A stretch of 64,000 bases of DNA, from contig NC_015948.1 of the NCBI RefSeq assembly GCF_000223905.1, positions 1,674,001-1,738,000 on the forward strand. Reading direction: 5' to 3'. A program made the position numbers and the translations under genes. Below the pieces are notes generated by a model that was not told the DNA's origin, searched no databases, and saw only the letters and a list, made by a program, of their open reading frames with translations. This document shows positions 22,642 through 30,205 of the stretch, in pieces. The number at the start of each line of letters is the position of its first letter. The first letter of the stretch is position 1. This DNA is from Haloarcula hispanica ATCC 33960. GTDB taxonomy: Archaea > Halobacteriota > Halobacteria > Halobacteriales > Haloarculaceae.

Positions 22642-25023
22642 TCAGTCGGCCGCTGCTGGTTGCTGCGTCGCAGTCGGTCCCTCGGCACTTGCCTTGCTGT
22701 GTGTGGCTGTTCCCGCCAGCGTCCGCGTGGAGTTCCCCACGACGAGCAGGCTGCTGGCCGTCATCGCCAGCGCCGCAAACAGTGGGTTCAGGACGCCAAG
22801 CAACGCGAGCGGGAGCGCCACGGCGTTGTAACAGAACGCCCACGCGAGGTTCTGTCGGACCCGCGTGCGAGTTGCGGCCGTCACGGCGAACATGTCAGGA
22901 ACGGCGCGCAGGTCGTCTGTTGTGACGACCGCGTCGGCCGCATCGGCGGCCAGTGACGTGCCTGACGCCATAGCGATGCCGACGTCGGCGGCAGCCAGGG
23001 CCGGGGCGTCGTTACTCCCGTCGCCGACCATCGCGACAGTCCCGCGGGACTGCAGTCGCTCGACGACTTCGGCTTTCGCCTCCGGCGGCACCCCGGCGAA
23101 CACTTCGTCGACGCCGTCGTGGCGCTCGAACGGGACGGCGGCCTCGGGCCGGTCGCCAGTGATGACGACGACATCGCGGTCCCGGGCGAGCGTCGAGACG
23201 ACCGACTCCCAGTTCGCGCGGAGCCTGTCCCCCGCGACGAGCACGTCCTGTGCTTCGCCGTCCCAGCCGACGAGCGCCGGGACACGCCCGTTCTCAGTCG
23301 CACGCTCACACTGGGTCCGGAGGTCGGCGGGCACGTCGAACCCGAGGTCGTCGAACAGCGCTTGCGTCCCGACGACGACCTGTTCCCCATCGACTGTCGC
23401 ACTGACGCCCTGGCCCGGGTGTTGCTCGAACTCGGAGACAGTCGCGTCGGGGACCGACACGGCGTCCGTCACCGCTTCGGCGACGGGATGGTCCGCGAAC
23501 TGCTCGACCGCGGCGGCTCGGGCCATCGCCCGGTCGTCGGCCCGCTCCAGCAGTTCCATCTCGCCGGTCGTCAGCGTGCCCGTCTTGTCGAACGCGACCA
23601 CGTCCGCGTCGGTCTCCGTCTCGAACACCGCATCGCCGGTGACGACGGTCCCGCCGTCCAGCGCCCGGCGGATGCCGGCCGCGGTCGCCAGCGGCGTCGC
23701 CAGCCCCAGCGCGCAGGGACAGGAGACCACGAGTACAGCCAGCCCGGTCAGCATCGCGTCCGTCGGCGTCGCTCCGGCGACGAGGTGCCCGCCGGTAGCG
23801 AGAACAGCCAGGAAAACCACCAGCGGGACGAAGACGGCGGCGATACGGTCAACCAGCCGCTGGACGCCGCCGCGCGTGCTCTGGACCTCCCACAGCAGGT
23901 TCGTCAGCCGGTCGACGGTGCTCTCGGCGTCCGGCCCGACCTGGACGACGACGCCGCCCTGCGTGACCAGGGACCCGCCGATGACCTCGTCGCCGTCCGT
24001 CTTCCGGACGGCTAGCGACTCGCCGGTCACGAGCGACTCGTCGACGGCAGCGGTCCCTTCCACGACGGTGCCGTCGACCGGGACGCGATCCCCGGACCGG
24101 ACAACGACTTCGTCGCCGGGCGACAGCACCCCTACATCGACCTCCTCGTGACCACCGTCGGTGCGTCGCCGGGCGCTATCGGCCCGCTGTGTCGTGAACT
24201 CCGTGAGGCGGTCCAGCGCGCGCCGCCGAACCCGGTCCTGGTAGTAGTCGCCGACCGAGACGGCCATGACGATGACCGTCGCCACGTCGAAGTACACCTC
24301 TGTATGTCCCAAAATGACGGCGACAACGCTGTACAGGAAAGCGGTCACGGCGGCCATCGCCACCAGCAGGTCCATGTTCGGACGGCCAGCCCGGAGACTG
24401 ACGTAGGCCCCGCGAAGCAACGGCCACCCAGTGTACCCGACTACGACGCCGGTCATCACGGCCATGTTCCACAGCAGGTAGTCCCCCGCCTGCCCCGCCG
24501 GGTCGAACAGCAACAGCGACGAGTCGACACCGAGGTAGGCCGGGTAGAGAAAGAGGATGTACCACAGCATCGTCATCATTCCGAAGAAGCCGCCGACGAT
24601 GAGACGCCCCTCCAGTTCGTACTCGTCGTCGGTCTCCGTGGCCTGCAGGCTGGCGTCGTAGCCGGTGCCGGCCACCGCGTCCGCGAGGTCCGACTCGGAG
24701 AGCGCGTCGGCGTCGTAGGTGAGTTTCATCGTCCCCGTCGGGTAGCTGGCGGCCGCGGCGGCGACGCCGTCGTGGTCTGTGGCCCGCGCTTCCAGAAACG
24801 TCTCGCAGGTCGCACAGTGCATCCCCTCGACGGAGAGGAAGGCCGTCTCGCCGTCGGCGTCGTCCGGATCGGGTCCTGTGTCGGCCGCGTCGCGGGTCTC
24901 CGTCGCCGGGTCGTCGAGCGTCCGGGCGACCTCCAGACAGCCGCGACAGCAGAACGTCCCCTCGACCGCGTCGTCGGTGACCGGCGTATCGACCGGCAGG
25001 TCACAGAGCGTACAGTGGGTCAT
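22642..25023 (-). CDS. Copper-transporting P-type ATPase, CcoI/FixI-like
   Basis: From ATG 25023 (overlapping the upstream stop by ATGA) the product has 793 residues. The N-terminus has a Cys-rich metal site (C4, C7, then FCCRGCLEV) as in the CcoI/FixI group, followed by a heavy-metal-binding domain with GMHCATC. Membrane helices follow, with the ion-binding SCPCALG motif, TGES (VTGESLAV), the phosphorylation site DKTGTLTTGE and the hinge GDGSNDAPAL. CcoI-type pumps deliver copper across the membrane for assembly of heme-copper oxidases; the position beside a ba3-type oxidase operon supports that. Stopping short, a general copper exporter is the alternative. Confidence 0.9.
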   Translation of the reverse strand: MTHCTLCDLPVDTPVTDDAVEGTFCCRGCLEVARTLDDPATETRDAADTGPDPDDADGETAFLSVEGMHCATCETFLEARATDHDGVAAAAASYPTGTMKLTYDADALSESDLADAVAGTGYDASLQATETDDEYELEGRLIVGGFFGMMTMLWYILFLYPAYLGVDSSLLLFDPAGQAGDYLLWNMAVMTGVVVGYTGWPLLRGAYVSLRAGRPNMDLLVAMAAVTAFLYSVVAVILGHTEVYFDVATVIVMAVSVGDYYQDRVRRRALDRLTEFTTQRADSARRRTDGGHEEVDVGVLSPGDEVVVRSGDRVPVDGTVVEGTAAVDESLVTGESLAVRKTDGDEVIGGSLVTQGGVVVQVGPDAESTVDRLTNLLWEVQSTRGGVQRLVDRIAAVFVPLVVFLAVLATGGHLVAGATPTDAMLTGLAVLVVSCPCALGLATPLATAAGIRRALDGGTVVTGDAVFETETDADVVAFDKTGTLTTGEMELLERADDRAMARAAAVEQFADHPVAEAVTDAVSVPDATVSEFEQHPGQGVSATVDGEQVVVGTQALFDDLGFDVPADLRTQCERATENGRVPALVGWDGEAQDVLVAGDRLRANWESVVSTLARDRDVVVITGDRPEAAVPFERHDGVDEVFAGVPPEAKAEVVERLQSRGTVAMVGDGSNDAPALAAADVGIAMASGTSLAADAADAVVTTDDLRAVPDMFAVTAATRTRVRQNLAWAFCYNAVALPLALLGVLNPLFAALAMTASSLLVVGNSTRTLAGTATHSKASAEGPTATQQPAAAD

Positions 25024-25793
25024 GTCCAGGGCATCGGCAGGGGTGGTTTCGGGATGGCGATACCGAACGCCGCCAGCCCGTTCGACAGCGGGACGAGCGC
25101 GAGTGCGATGAAGACGACGCCGAGCACCCGGTGCAGCGTTGCGCGATGGCCCGGCGACAGCGTGCCGAAGGCGGTCCCGTAGGCAAACACCAGCGGGAAC
25201 GTCCCGAGGCCGAGCGCGGCCAGCGAGAGCCCGCCAGTGAGCGCGGAGCCCGTCGCAAACGCATACAGGAACGCCGGGTAGAGCAGCGGACAGGGGAGCA
25301 GCCCGTGCATTGCACCCAGCGCGACCATCCCCGGGCCGTCGACCCACCGGTCGACTCTGGCAACGAGCGACGCGGAGAGTCGCTGGAACAGGTCCCCGAC
25401 CAGCGGTAGCGACCGGGCCACATCGACGGCGCGGCCACGGGAGAGATACCCCAGCCCCACGGTGATGATAGCGAGGCCGACGAAAACCCCGACGGCTCCA
25501 CGGACGGCGGTCCCGAGGCGTGCTAAGCCGGCCACGTCGTACAGAACGCTGCCAGCAGCGCCAAGCACCGTTCCGACGAGCGCGTAGCTCAGCGTCCGTC
25601 CGGCGTTGAACAGCGCGTGCTGACGTATTTCGTGGCCTGATACCGGCCCGCCGTCGTCAAGTCTATCGGCGTAGGTGGTGACTAACGGCCCGCACATCCC
25701 GAGGCAGTGGACACTCCCGACGAGTCCCAGCCCGACGAACGCCGCGAGGCCGGCCGTCTCACCGGAACTCAGCCCCGCCGTCCCGAACTGCAT
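25020..25793 (-). CDS. TauE/SafE-like membrane protein (DsbD_2 family), oxidase assembly
   Basis: The 257-residue product has six hydrophobic segments and the two cysteine motifs typical of this family: GSVHCLGMCGP near residue 30 and GLLPCPLLYPA near residue 160. In bacteria a protein of this kind is commonly encoded next to ccoI and ccoS in cytochrome-oxidase maturation clusters. Its stop overlaps the start of the copper ATPase gene (ATGA), so both are co-translated. A role in moving copper or reducing equivalents for oxidase maturation is inferred from context. Confidence 0.88.
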   Translation of the reverse strand: MQFGTAGLSSGETAGLAAFVGLGLVGSVHCLGMCGPLVTTYADRLDDGGPVSGHEIRQHALFNAGRTLSYALVGTVLGAAGSVLYDVAGLARLGTAVRGAVGVFVGLAIITVGLGYLSRGRAVDVARSLPLVGDLFQRLSASLVARVDRWVDGPGMVALGAMHGLLPCPLLYPAFLYAFATGSALTGGLSLAALGLGTFPLVFAYGTAFGTLSPGHRATLHRVLGVVFIALALVPLSNGLAAFGIAIPKPPLPMPWT

Positions 25794-25794
25794 A

Positions 25795-25971
25795 TCAGAC
25801 GGTACTCGACTCGGTTGGTTGTGTCATCCAGAACAGGCTGCCGGCGATGATGACGACGCTGACCAGCGAGAGCGCGACGATGGAGCGTCCGGTTCCCTGC
25901 ATGTAGTACGCGACCGGCGCGAGACCGAGCAGCGCCAGCAACGTCACGAGCCGAGGGCTTGACGCAGACAT
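25795..25971 (-). CDS. Small two-TM protein at head of the oxidase-assembly operon
   Basis: From ATG 25971 the product has 58 residues: MSASSPRLVTLLALLGLAP, a hydrophobic stretch, a short polar turn (YMQGTGRS), a second hydrophobic stretch (IVALSLVSVVIIAGSLFW) and a polar tail. The stop is one base before the TauE-like gene. A TATA box (CTTTTTATAAT on the minus strand, 25993-26003) lies about 27 bases upstream, so the transcript is leaderless and this ATG is right. It resembles small accessory subunits annotated near haloarchaeal ba3 oxidases (CbaE type); I am not sure of the assignment. Confidence 0.7.
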   Translation of the reverse strand: MSASSPRLVTLLALLGLAPVAYYMQGTGRSIVALSLVSVVIIAGSLFWMTQPTESSTV

Positions 25972-26138: not shown

Positions 26139-27371
26139 ATGGCGCTGAGTCGGCGACAGTTCGTCGGTGCCGCAGCCGGGACGGCGGCGCTGGCCGCGAC
26201 CGGCACGGCGACAGCACAGGAAGAACCGGACTACGGCGGCTGGTTCGACGACGTGTCGAACTACGACGGGACCGCCGACAAGCGAGGCCAAGACACTGTT
26301 ACAATCACCGTCGGCGCGCAGGGCAACAACGGCGCGTTCGCCTTCGACCCGCCGGCAGTGATGGTCAGCCCGGGCACAGAGGTCGTCTGGGAGTGGAACG
26401 GCGAAGGCGGCGGTCACAACGTCGTCTCCGACGGCGACGGCCCGCTCGACTCCGGGGGCGCGGTCAGCGAAGCCGGCACGACCTACAGCCACACCTTCGA
26501 GTCTGAGGGGATGTTCAAGTACGTCTGTGTTCCCCACGAAGCGCTCGGAATGAAAGGCGCAGTCGTCGTCCGGTCCGGTGGCAGCGGGGGCGGCGACTCC
26601 GATGGCGGCGGTCAGCAACAAGGACCGCCGGCAAACCCGGATTACGGCGGCTGGTTCGACGACGTCTCGAACTACGACGGAACGACAGTCGACAGAACCG
26701 ACGCCGATAGCGTCGAGATATCGGTCGGTGCACAGGGCAACAACGGCGCGTTCGCCTTCGACCCGCCAGCGGTTCGGGTGACACCCGGCACCGAAGTGAC
26801 GTGGAAGTGGACCGGCGAAGGCGGCGGCCACAACGTCGTCTCCGACGGTGACGGTCCACTCGACTCCGGGGGCGCGGTCAGCGAAGCCGGCACGACCTAC
26901 AGCCATACCTTCGAGGAAATGGGCGTGTACAAATACGTCTGTGTCCCTCACGAGTCACTCGGGATGAAGGGCGCTGTCGTTGTCGGTGGCCCGCTCGATG
27001 GCAGCGGTGGTGGCAGTGACGGCGGCAGCGGACAGGAAGGGAGCGGTATCGAACTCTCCGGCCCGCAGTGGCTCCTTTCAGGCTCGGTCCTGCTGGCGTT
27101 CTTCTCGCCGCTGTTGTTCGCGGTCGCGATGCGACGCCGCCAGAACGGGCGGCCTCCACAGACGGGTGAAGGTGGCGAGCTACGGCGGGCGAGCGGCCCG
27201 GAACCTGTTGAAGAGGCCGCTGAAACTGAACCGGCTGTCGAGCTGGGCCACGACGAGTACGACCCGAAGGGAACGGCGGCGTTGGTCGCCTTCTACTTCG
27301 TGTTGATTGCCCTGCTGTGGGTGTTCATGTACTTCGTCGAGTTCCTCGGCCGCGTCTCCATAATCGGGTGA
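26139..27371 (+). CDS. Double halocyanin fused to an oxidase subunit IIa-like segment
   Basis: Electron donor and anchor subunit for a terminal oxidase. The 410-residue protein starts with a Tat signal (SRRQFVGAAAGTAALAATG). Two blue-copper halocyanin domains follow at about 31-145 and 168-283, with complete ligand sets H93/C130/H133/M138 and H231/C268/H271/M276. A Gly/Ser linker separates them. A membrane helix is at 311-331, a charged linker at 332-373, and a final helix YDPKGTAALVAFYFVLIALL at about 374-393, extended to EFLGRV. This last part resembles the single-helix subunit IIa of Thermus ba3 oxidase. Subunits II and I follow at once. Confidence 0.88.
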   Translation: MALSRRQFVGAAAGTAALAATGTATAQEEPDYGGWFDDVSNYDGTADKRGQDTVTITVGAQGNNGAFAFDPPAVMVSPGTEVVWEWNGEGGGHNVVSDGDGPLDSGGAVSEAGTTYSHTFESEGMFKYVCVPHEALGMKGAVVVRSGGSGGGDSDGGGQQQGPPANPDYGGWFDDVSNYDGTTVDRTDADSVEISVGAQGNNGAFAFDPPAVRVTPGTEVTWKWTGEGGGHNVVSDGDGPLDSGGAVSEAGTTYSHTFEEMGVYKYVCVPHESLGMKGAVVVGGPLDGSGGGSDGGSGQEGSGIELSGPQWLLSGSVLLAFFSPLLFAVAMRRRQNGRPPQTGEGGELRRASGPEPVEEAAETEPAVELGHDEYDPKGTAALVAFYFVLIALLWVFMYFVEFLGRVSIIG

Positions 27372-27375
27372 TACC

Positions 27376-27945
27376 ATGCAGGTTCATAGATTCGAAAAAG
27401 TTTGGCTCGGTGCAGCGATACTGCTCATCGTCGGTTTCATCGCCACCATCGCGTACGGGTCGGTTGGTGTCGGCGTCGGGATGGTCGACGATACGGGCGG
27501 ACAGATCAGCGCAGAAGAAGTACAGAACGGTAACACTGGGACCCAGTTCGACGACCCCGGTGTCGTCAAAGAGGACGGGCAGTACGTCGTGTACGTCGTC
27601 GCCCGGCAGTTCCAGTTCTCTCCCGGAACTGGGGACACACCGATCCGCGTGCCCGCGGGTGAGAACGTCACGTTCAAGGTGACCAGTGCAGACGTGGTGC
27701 ACGGCTTCTCAGTGGTCGAAACCAACATCAACACGATGGTCATCCCGGGACAGGTCTCAGAAGTCTCGGCCCGATTCAACGAGCCCGGCACCTACGGGCT
27801 CATCTGTCACGAATACTGCGGGGCGGCCCATCACACGATGGGTGGCTCCGTCGAGGTCGTCCCGCCGGAGGAGTACGATATGCAGCAAGAGAACATCGAC
27901 CAGTCCGCAGATGACGCACAGGCTCAGGAGGAGGCGGATCAGTAA
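27376..27945 (+). CDS. cbaB: ba3-type heme-copper oxidase subunit II (CuA)
   Basis: Subunit II takes electrons from a blue-copper donor and passes them through the binuclear CuA site to subunit I. The 189-residue product has one N-terminal membrane helix (VWLGAAILLIVGFIATIAYGS), a soluble beta barrel and the CuA motif CHEYCGAAHHTM near residue 143-154, complete with two Cys, a His and a Met. The N-terminal anchor with only one helix is the ba3 type. It lies five bases behind the halocyanin fusion and its stop overlaps the start of subunit I by one base. Confidence 0.92.
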   Translation: MQVHRFEKVWLGAAILLIVGFIATIAYGSVGVGVGMVDDTGGQISAEEVQNGNTGTQFDDPGVVKEDGQYVVYVVARQFQFSPGTGDTPIRVPAGENVTFKVTSADVVHGFSVVETNINTMVIPGQVSEVSARFNEPGTYGLICHEYCGAAHHTMGGSVEVVPPEEYDMQQENIDQSADDAQAQEEADQ

Positions 27946-29633
27946 TGGTGTTCGTCGACTCCTATCCGAAAACGTCGAAGCTCGTCCGTAGCGAGTTCCT
28001 CGTCTCGTTCATCGCTCTCGGAATCGGTGCGCTGTTCGGCGTCATCCAGGCGCTCCATCGGACCGGCGTGTTCCGGGGCTTCGTCAGTTCAGCCGACTAC
28101 TACACGATTCTGACGGGCCACGGCGTCCTGCTGGCGCTCGTGTTTACCACGTTCTTCATCGCAGGACTGTTCACATGGGCTGTCGCCAGCAGTCTCGAAC
28201 GGGAGTTGCCACAGCGTATCGCCTGGTCGGCCTTCTGGATAATGCTCACGGGGACGGTGCTTGCGGCCGTGTCTATCATCGGCGGTATCGTCGGTTCGCC
28301 GTCGATCCTGGGTCACGACCTCGAAGCGGACGTGCTGTTCACCTTCTACGCCCCGATGAAGGCGCACCCGGCGTTCTACATCGGCGCCGCGCTCATCATC
28401 GTCGGCTCGTGGGTCGCCGGCCTCGCGTACTTCAAGTCCCTGTGGGAGTGGCGCTCTGAGAACCCGGGTGAACGCATTCCCCTGCAGACGTTCATGGTCC
28501 TGACGACGATGCTGATGTGGTACGTCTCCACCATCGGCGTCGCCGTCGAGGTCGTCGCCTTCCTCATTCCGTGGTCGCTCGGACTCATCCAGAACGTCGA
28601 CCCGCTGCTGACGCGGACGCTGTTCTGGTACTTCGGCCACCCGGTCGTGTACTTCTGGCTCATGCCGGCGTATCTCGTCTGGTACACGATTCTACCGAAG
28701 CTGGCCGGTGGGCGGCTGTTCAGTGACCCGCTGGCCCGCGTCGTGTTCGTCGCCTTCCTGCTGCTTTCGACCCCGGTCGGCTTCCACCACCAGTACACCG
28801 ACCCCGGCATCCCCTCGGGCTACAAGTTCATCGCGATGACGAACACGATGTTCTTGCTGTTGCCCTCGCTGCTGACCGCGTTCACCGTGGTCGCCTCGGT
28901 CGAACACGGCGCTCGCCAGCGGGGTGCAAAGGGCTATCTCTCCTGGCTTCGGAATCTGCCCTGGGGTAAGCCGGCCTTCGCCGGCTGTATGCTCGCCGGC
29001 CTGATGTTCGCCGCAGGAGGGTTCTCCGGCATGATCAACGCCGGGATGAACATCAACTACCTCATCCACAACACCATCTGGGTGCCCGGCCACTTCCATC
29101 TCACCGTCGGGACTGCGTTCGCGCTAACGGCGATGGCGATCAGCTACTGGCTGGTCCCACAGATCACCGGGAAGAAACTCCGACAGCGCACCATCGCCAC
29201 GCTCCAGCCGTACGTCTGGTTCGTGGGCATGGCGGTGATGTCGAACGCCATGCACCGCGCCGGCCTCGCCGGCATTCCGCGACGGACTGCCGAACCGACG
29301 TACGACGAGTTCGCGTTCGAGGGCGTCGCCGGAACGGTCGGCGAAATGCGCATCCAGATCGCCATCGGCGGCTTCCTGCTGTTCGTCGGCGCGGCGATGT
29401 TCCTCATCGTCATGGCCGACACCTTGCTCGCTCGCCGCGGCGGGACGCTGTCGGTCAACGGGACGATTCCGGAGCCGCTGTCCGGCGCGGACCACAGCCC
29501 GCGTATCCTGGACAACTACAAGCTCTGGACGGCGATTGCCCTGCTGCTCATCGCCATCGCCTACGGGCCGCCGCTCGCCAGCATGGTCGCTGATGGACTG
29601 TTCGCGCCCGGTAGCCCGCCGATCCCGGTCTAA
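27945..29633 (+). CDS. cbaA: ba3-type heme-copper oxidase subunit I
   Basis: Catalytic subunit that reduces oxygen to water and pumps protons. The 562-residue product has about 13 hydrophobic segments and the heme-copper landmarks: TGHGVLLALVF with the low-spin heme histidine, FWYFGHPVVYFWLMPAYL with the CuB histidine, FHHQYTDPG with the His pair, and WVPGHFHLTVG with the high-spin heme histidines. It is the ba3/B-type by size and by the subunit II partner. It is co-transcribed with the genes before and after it. Confidence 0.95.
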   Translation: MVFVDSYPKTSKLVRSEFLVSFIALGIGALFGVIQALHRTGVFRGFVSSADYYTILTGHGVLLALVFTTFFIAGLFTWAVASSLERELPQRIAWSAFWIMLTGTVLAAVSIIGGIVGSPSILGHDLEADVLFTFYAPMKAHPAFYIGAALIIVGSWVAGLAYFKSLWEWRSENPGERIPLQTFMVLTTMLMWYVSTIGVAVEVVAFLIPWSLGLIQNVDPLLTRTLFWYFGHPVVYFWLMPAYLVWYTILPKLAGGRLFSDPLARVVFVAFLLLSTPVGFHHQYTDPGIPSGYKFIAMTNTMFLLLPSLLTAFTVVASVEHGARQRGAKGYLSWLRNLPWGKPAFAGCMLAGLMFAAGGFSGMINAGMNINYLIHNTIWVPGHFHLTVGTAFALTAMAISYWLVPQITGKKLRQRTIATLQPYVWFVGMAVMSNAMHRAGLAGIPRRTAEPTYDEFAFEGVAGTVGEMRIQIAIGGFLLFVGAAMFLIVMADTLLARRGGTLSVNGTIPEPLSGADHSPRILDNYKLWTAIALLLIAIAYGPPLASMVADGLFAPGSPPIPV

Positions 29634-29656: not shown

Positions 29657-30205
29657 ATGTTCGACGACGTCGACGGTCCGGAGCAGAAAACGCTGCTACG
29701 ACTCCTCATCATCGTTGGAATCGGCTTGCCGATCCTCATCGAGGTCGTTACCTTCGGGAGTATGATGGGGCATCATTTGACCGGGGACACCGGAGGTGAG
29801 GCGGTCCCCGAAACGCCGACTGCGGAGCCGGCCGGTGCCGGCGTCGGCGACCCGATTCTGGAATCCGCGAACGTCTCAGCCCGCATCGATGCGGCGTCTG
29901 TCGTCACCGCTGACGAGGGGTGGCGGTTCACGCTCACGGTGAACGTGACGAACACCGGGACAGACCCCGCGGCAGTTCGTCTCGACAGCGTCACCACCCG
30001 CAGCGGCGAGACGGTTGCGGAATCCGCGAGCACCGGACAGCTACCAGTGAATCAGACTGACGACGTGACCAAGTCGTGGCTACTGCCCCCCGGCGAACGA
30101 CCGGACACTGTCTCCGTAACAGTGCTAGTGTATCCGGACGGGGGCTCGGTACAATCGACGCAATACACCGTTGCGCTCGGTGACATCCCCGTTTCGAACC
30201 GCTGA
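29657..30205 (+). CDS. Membrane-anchored protein of the oxidase operon
   Basis: The 182-residue product has a single N-terminal membrane helix (LLRLLIIVGIGLPILIEVVTF), a short His pair (GHH), then an extracellular beta-sandwich region (WRFTLTVNVTNTGTDPAAVRL, TVSVTVLVYPDGGS). It lies 24 bases after subunit I, in the same direction, so it belongs to the operon. The shape is that of a CARDB/FxLYD-like domain for extracytoplasmic contacts. It has no recognised enzyme motif and may stabilise or assemble the oxidase. Confidence 0.75.
   Translation: MFDDVDGPEQKTLLRLLIIVGIGLPILIEVVTFGSMMGHHLTGDTGGEAVPETPTAEPAGAGVGDPILESANVSARIDAASVVTADEGWRFTLTVNVTNTGTDPAAVRLDSVTTRSGETVAESASTGQLPVNQTDDVTKSWLLPPGERPDTVSVTVLVYPDGGSVQSTQYTVALGDIPVSNR

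Follow-up and report, generated by a model that had tools for sequence, protein, structure and literature searches.

A halocyanin fusion gene opens a ba3-type oxidase operon

The window, that is, the whole stretch of 64,000 nucleotides analysed from the genome of Haloarcula hispanica ATCC 33960 (NC_015948.1, positions 1,674,001 to 1,738,000), contains a cba oxidase operon on the plus strand and a divergent copper cassette upstream of it. The first gene of the operon encodes halocyanin and subunit IIa (CbaD)-like parts, which share one reading frame upstream of subunit II. The features of the locus are as follows.

26139..27371, plus strand: fusion gene, halocyanin-halocyanin-transmembrane (TM) helix-IIa (CbaD), 410 amino acids (ORF; TIGR03102, Pfam, AlphaFold2)
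26139..26219, plus strand: N-terminal signal MALSRRQFVGAAAGTAALAATGTATAQ, Tat type, residues 1-27 (read from the sequence)
26223..26573, plus strand: halocyanin domain 1 (D1), residues 29-145, ligands H93, C130, H133 and M138 (TIGR03102)
26574..26636, plus strand: Gly/Ser-rich inter-domain linker (pLDDT below 50 at residues 149-158)
26637..26987, plus strand: halocyanin domain 2 (D2), residues 167-283, ligands H231, C268, H271 and M276 (TIGR03102)
27069..27143, plus strand: TM helix 1, residues 311-335, followed by MRRRQNGR (positive inside) (AlphaFold2 helix)
27261..27371, plus strand: subunit IIa/CbaD-like helix (DPKGT...W...MYFVEFLG), predicted N-terminus inside (motif, operon position, AlphaFold2 helix 376-403)
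27376..27945, plus strand: CbaB, subunit II, with CuA site and one N-terminal TM helix (COX2; Thermus ba3 subunit II, E 1.2e-28)
27945..29633, plus strand: CbaA, ba3-type (B family) oxidase subunit I (COX1, E 8e-91)
29657..30205, plus strand: CbaC-like small membrane protein, named by position only (no family match)
22642 to about 25000, minus strand: HMA copper P-type ATPase, divergent from the cba operon
25020-25793, minus strand: DsbD-like membrane protein of the divergent copper cassette
25795-25971, minus strand: 58-amino-acid membrane peptide of the divergent copper cassette

CbaA was searched in 391 genomes of the class, and 120 operons were taken together with that of the window, with the highest CbaA identity favoured; the proportions reported here are those of this 121-operon sample, not of the class. 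That the gene is the first of a ba3-type operon, as a sequence-only reading of this DNA had proposed, was borne out, as CbaA and CbaB are closest to Thermus ba3 and the fusion lies directly before CbaB. Thermus ba3 subunit I accounts for the best 18 solved relatives of CbaA (about 420 bits, E about 1e-124; others at most 353 bits). The CuA ligand residues of CbaB align with those of Thermus subunit II, and its TM helix was read from the sequence. The fusion ORF ends 4 bp upstream of CbaB, and the median gap across the 121 operons is also 4 bp. Sequence relatives of the CbaC-like protein were found in 59 of the 64 operons with a fusion, compared to 2 of the 57 without one. The whole H. hispanica genome holds six COX1-family genes, so that several terminal oxidases compete for electrons.

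Two complete copper domains and their linkers

The same reading had described two complete halocyanin domains with all copper ligands, followed by a membrane helix, and both descriptions held. TIGR03102, the halocyanin model, has two matches in the fusion that together reach 352 bits (E 4.4e-107) against a cut-off of 93.8. Pfam Copper-bind also matches twice (E 1.7e-36), and H-C-H-M is present in both domains. All eight ligands were invariant in 43 aligned fusions, and the complete domains of relatives carry all four in every case (54/54, 55/55 and 9/9). The AlphaFold2 model, built with 43 aligned sequences, predicts both cupredoxin domains with confidence (block pLDDT mostly 93-97), together with the two helices at 311-335 and 376-403 and linkers of low confidence. 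The foldseek matches of single domains to plastocyanin are sound (TMt 0.84-0.89). The whole model also matched multi-copper oxidases, but this was set aside, as the TM-score of about 0.2 reflects repeated cupredoxin folds only.

These domains might mainly store copper, or deliver it for the assembly of CuA and CuB, instead of carrying electrons. Such a role would suit the copper P-type ATPase and DsbD-like genes that lie divergently upstream and have relatives beside the majority of the 121 cba operons, whether fused or unfused. However, the full type 1 ligand set and the plastocyanin-like folds are typical of electron carriers, and unfused operons retain the copper genes without any halocyanin domain, which means that copper supply does not need the fusion. 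We regard a copper-supply role as highly improbable and take both domains as putative electron carriers; they would be functionally interchangeable copies.

The N-terminal signal would direct export of these domains. A twin-arginine pattern (RRxhh) was present in the signals of 57 of 63 fusions and a looser RR in the remaining 6; the window's own signal reads RRQF, and its score against TIGR01409 lies under the cut-off. The linker between the two copper domains spans 7-24 residues among 54 fusions, a second Gly-rich linker joins domain 2 to helix 1, and the distance from domain 2 to the proline of the IIa segment is about 74-104 residues across the fusions. Within helix 1, G315 is conserved in at least 90% of the aligned fusions, and an acidic loop lies between the MRRRQNGR run and the last helix. 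The MRRRQ run that follows helix 1 puts the N-terminus of the IIa segment inside, and the predicted topology accordingly has the copper domains outside, helix 1 leading to the cytoplasm and the last helix running back outwards. The polarity of Thermus IIa, opposite to that of the first helix of A-type subunit II, was counted in favour of this arrangement. The claim that the fusion would feed CuA without diffusion was too strong: with linkers that are Gly-rich and modelled at low confidence, the copper domains would still diffuse, although on a tether.

In one relative (L061, genome G332), a frameshift inside domain 1 splits the fusion gene and leaves one halocyanin part in a second frame, owing either to a mutation or to an assembly error.

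The last helix resembles subunit IIa

The last helix (residues 376-403) sits within DPKGTAALVAFYFVLIALLWVFMYFVEFLGRVSIIG. Its signature consists of D-P-K-G-T, Trp394 and MYFVEF, and P376, G378, T379 and W394, which fit the IIa motif P-X(1-3)-G-T/A with a Trp in one TM helix, are invariant in the aligned fusions. In a subset of 47 sequences, the P, G, T, Y, W, Y and E of the IIa segment were all invariant, and a P-x-G-T helix with a Trp was found immediately 5' of subunit II in all 121 cba operons. Prunetti et al. (2011, PMC3128077) had earlier used the same motif to identify the C-terminal part of the halocyanins of Halobacterium and Haloarcula as IIa. The proposal of a IIa-like last helix with PKG and an aromatic run thus agrees with the motif, the operon position and the published reading.

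Similarity to the bacterial subunit was modest. A profile of 47 haloarchaeal segments scored 12.7 bits against Thermus IIa (1xme_C), in an ungapped alignment that pairs PxG and W; this score was matched by 3 of 4989 shuffles and by none of 538 other segments of CbaA or CbaB. The Thermus reference came from a phmmer search with the IIa sequence, which was checked against 1xme_C. The gathering score of Pfam CoxIIa (PF08113) was not reached, with 2 of 47 members matching at all (best E 0.031), and no match emerged when solved structures were searched with a profile of the IIa segment. Together, these results point to a resemblance above chance that is weak on sequence alone. According to PMC3128077, archaeal and bacterial IIa share low similarity, and the CoxIIa model therefore does not define CbaD. 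Membership of CbaD rests on operon position, motif and literature, and position is stronger evidence than the similarity to Thermus IIa.

A different view of the C-terminal part is that helix 1 and the last helix form a mere two-pass anchor, the halocyanin being a general membrane carrier and not a stable oxidase subunit. The same genome does encode halocyanins held by a single plain TM anchor (L004 and L005), and the missed CoxIIa threshold would fit this view as well. Yet those plain anchors are without the IIa signature, and the P-x-G-T...W...Y..E helix is kept with or without an attached halocyanin, always directly before subunit II. Moreover, Mattar and Engelhard reportedly found in 1997 that stand-alone CbaD is a subunit of the purified Natronomonas pharaonis oxidase. 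A simple anchor is quite unlikely in our judgement, and we retain the putative assignment of the last helix to the IIa position of the oxidase.

Zero, one or two copper domains before subunit II

Halocyanin domains were counted with an iterated HMM, since an initial regular expression had missed many of them. Of the 121 operons, 55 have two halocyanin domains in the gene before subunit II, 9 have a single one and 57 lack them. The sequence-only reading had suggested a look for separate halocyanin and small-subunit genes in relatives. Stand-alone CbaD genes do exist (57/121), and none of these 57 unfused operons has a halocyanin gene on the stretch examined, up to about 3.5 kb upstream. Unfused operons are just as frequent in the sample as fused ones, which means that the oxidase can work without the tether.

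Mapped on the tree of CbaA, the three states require 4 changes, fused versus unfused 2, and one versus two domains 3. One unfused group branches next to fused ones, and 4 genomes of the window's genus contribute a second cba operon to it. Of its 11 members, 9 retain both helix 1 and the IIa helix but lack copper domains, and 4 of these 9 also have a signal-like N-terminus; the other two (L106 and L113) are without helix 1. The simplest reading of these sequences is that the halocyanin-less scaffold of helix 1 and IIa would have arisen from a fusion by deletion of its copper domains. The second cba operons of the window's genus that combine a signal-like N-terminus with helix 1 and IIa, and have no halocyanin, are L172/L100 (G055:C2), L089, L101 and L109.

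The two copper domains evolve in concert

Domains 1 and 2 of one protein share 70-93% identity. Domain 1 of the window shares only 48-64% with domain 1 of most other genera, and domain 2 likewise; the nearest other genus (L063) reaches 70-74% with the window's positional counterparts. In the domain alignment, lineage-specific indels are common to both domains of one protein. In the domain tree, D1 and D2 of a species or genus cluster together in at least 11 well-supported groups, and 19 changes of position are required. Monophyly of D1 was rejected (AU p 1.3e-5), with the constraint costing 599 lnL units. Other halocyanin genes of the genome were considered as possible exchange partners; these paralogs fall outside the fusion domains, on a tree with an unsure root.

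The nucleotide sites showed a gradient with distance. Between the window and its closest relative, 49 sites were positional and 0 concerted, compared to 2 positional and 72 concerted between the window and a fusion of another genus (L094). Within the window's genus, D1 and D2 were mostly positional with some sites homogenised, and in one of its members (G184, L054) 93% of shared-residue codons were identical between the two domains. Together, these comparisons show concerted evolution of the two domains at the level of sequence.

Homologous recombination between D1 and D2, by gene conversion or unequal exchange, would keep the copies alike and may sometimes drop one or both copper domains. Gene conversion is very efficient in polyploid haloarchaea (PMC8223754), there between genome copies and not within a gene. 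The likeness of D1 and D2 could also stem from many separate duplications of a one-domain fusion, in place of exchange between long-standing copies. One-domain fusions do occur, with 9 operons falling into two groups, and both forms are found within one genus. However, about 3 changes of domain number among the fused operons stand against 19 changes of position in the domain tree, and because domain number changes so seldom, loss and regain of a domain is less economical. Furthermore, the mostly positional D1 and D2 of the window's genus, with sites partly homogenised, speak against repeated duplication, which we consider unlikely; recombination between the copies is the favoured explanation.

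A control was available in the same genome. An unfused tandem halocyanin lipoprotein of about 300 amino acids (C3:1066851-1067555, L006/L008) has a D1-D2 identity of 42%, and in its D1 the first His is replaced by Gln and the Cys by Ser. This protein, with a diverged D1 short of two ligands, indicates that being duplicated in tandem is not enough to preserve the likeness and function of both domains. Near 71 kb on C1 there are fragments that share its Cys-to-Ser change and seem to be broken by a frameshift. Homogenisation of the two fusion domains in many lineages, without loss of copper ligands from any complete copy, suggests that both are needed and have to remain alike.

A proposed tethered electron donor

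We think it likely that the fusion tethers an electron donor to the ba3 oxidase through its IIa subunit and holds two working copper units that recombination keeps alike, with docking and electron transfer as the inferred parts of this proposal. After export of the copper domains, helix 1 would cross to the cytoplasm and the last helix would return and pack against CbaA/CbaB where IIa sits. On their flexible linkers, the copper domains would then swing and pass electrons singly to CuA. The presence of two domains may allow CuA to be met more often, provide a two-site relay or give a longer reach.

The electron source in H. hispanica would likely be a cytochrome b/Rieske complex with a membrane-anchored halocyanin of its own, in which case electrons would move between two tethered carriers. 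On C3 (L170 1783-5719, minus strand, in G000:C3:1325000-1335000), genes for a Rieske protein, a split cytochrome b and a small membrane protein form an operon that includes its own single-domain, TM-anchored halocyanin. About 600 bp past the window end, a second, more distant cytochrome b is encoded (G000:C3:1738635-1739210; PF00033, E 1.3e-30). Cytochrome b was also tried as a correlate of the fusion. Read by eye, PF00033 matched in 64 of 64 fusion genomes compared to 292 of 391 overall, a difference given no statistical weight: the 11 unfused negatives all belong to one family code (f3), 3 fusion genomes gave only weak matches, and PF00033 also matches other cytochromes b.

A bolder version would have complex III and the oxidase each bear a tethered halocyanin, the twin domains acting as a two-site relay that bridges a supercomplex with no free carrier. 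Recombination would here keep the sites interchangeable, so that one could serve CuA while the other reloads. This version strikes us as possible but doubtful, and it goes further than the tethered donor with two working copper units that we propose.

Comparison with known systems

The halocyanin-CbaD fusion itself is already known and was reported in 2008-2012. Four papers describe it for Halobacterium, and two of these also for Haloarcula (PMC2674319, 2009, citing Pfeiffer 2008; PMC3128077, 2011; PMC3403918, 2012; PMC8305020, 2021). Their available portions make no mention of the number of copper domains, of concerted evolution or of a halocyanin-less scaffold remnant. The full-text literature, with subscription papers mostly outside it, likewise yielded no description of a fusion with two or tandem halocyanins. 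Within the literature searchable, a tandem kept alike by recombination and the series of zero, one and two domains appear undescribed. As this series sits on one scaffold, it offers a natural experiment in which the same oxidase family is directly comparable. Through its proposed tethering of the donor to a haloarchaeal terminal oxidase, the fusion also bears on what replaces cytochrome c in these organisms.

The HcpB-CbaD proteins OE_4073R of Halobacterium salinarum and YP_135809 of Haloarcula marismortui have the same order, with an N-terminal halocyanin and a C-terminal IIa helix bearing PxGT and a Trp, and their genes too lie immediately upstream of subunit II. The published gene of H. marismortui, a species of the same genus, probably has its direct ortholog in the H. 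hispanica gene. The Thermus IIa gene is likewise located directly upstream of subunit II (PMC3128077). The IIa peptide of Thermus thermophilus ba3 oxidase (1xme_C, 34 amino acids) resembles the fusion helix in its N-terminal PxG, central Trp and single helix, but it is a free peptide that lacks both a copper domain and an additional helix. The stand-alone CbaD proteins of N. pharaonis and Haloferax volcanii have the complete IIa motif and occupy the same place in the operon as the fusion, whereas they have no attached halocyanin and no halocyanin gene on the stretch examined. A probable functional analogue is provided by caa3-type oxidases, in which cytochrome c is fused to subunit II and the donor is covalently tied beside CuA. 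They differ from the halocyanin fusion in that the cofactor is haem c and not blue copper, and in that the carrier is subunit II and not IIa.
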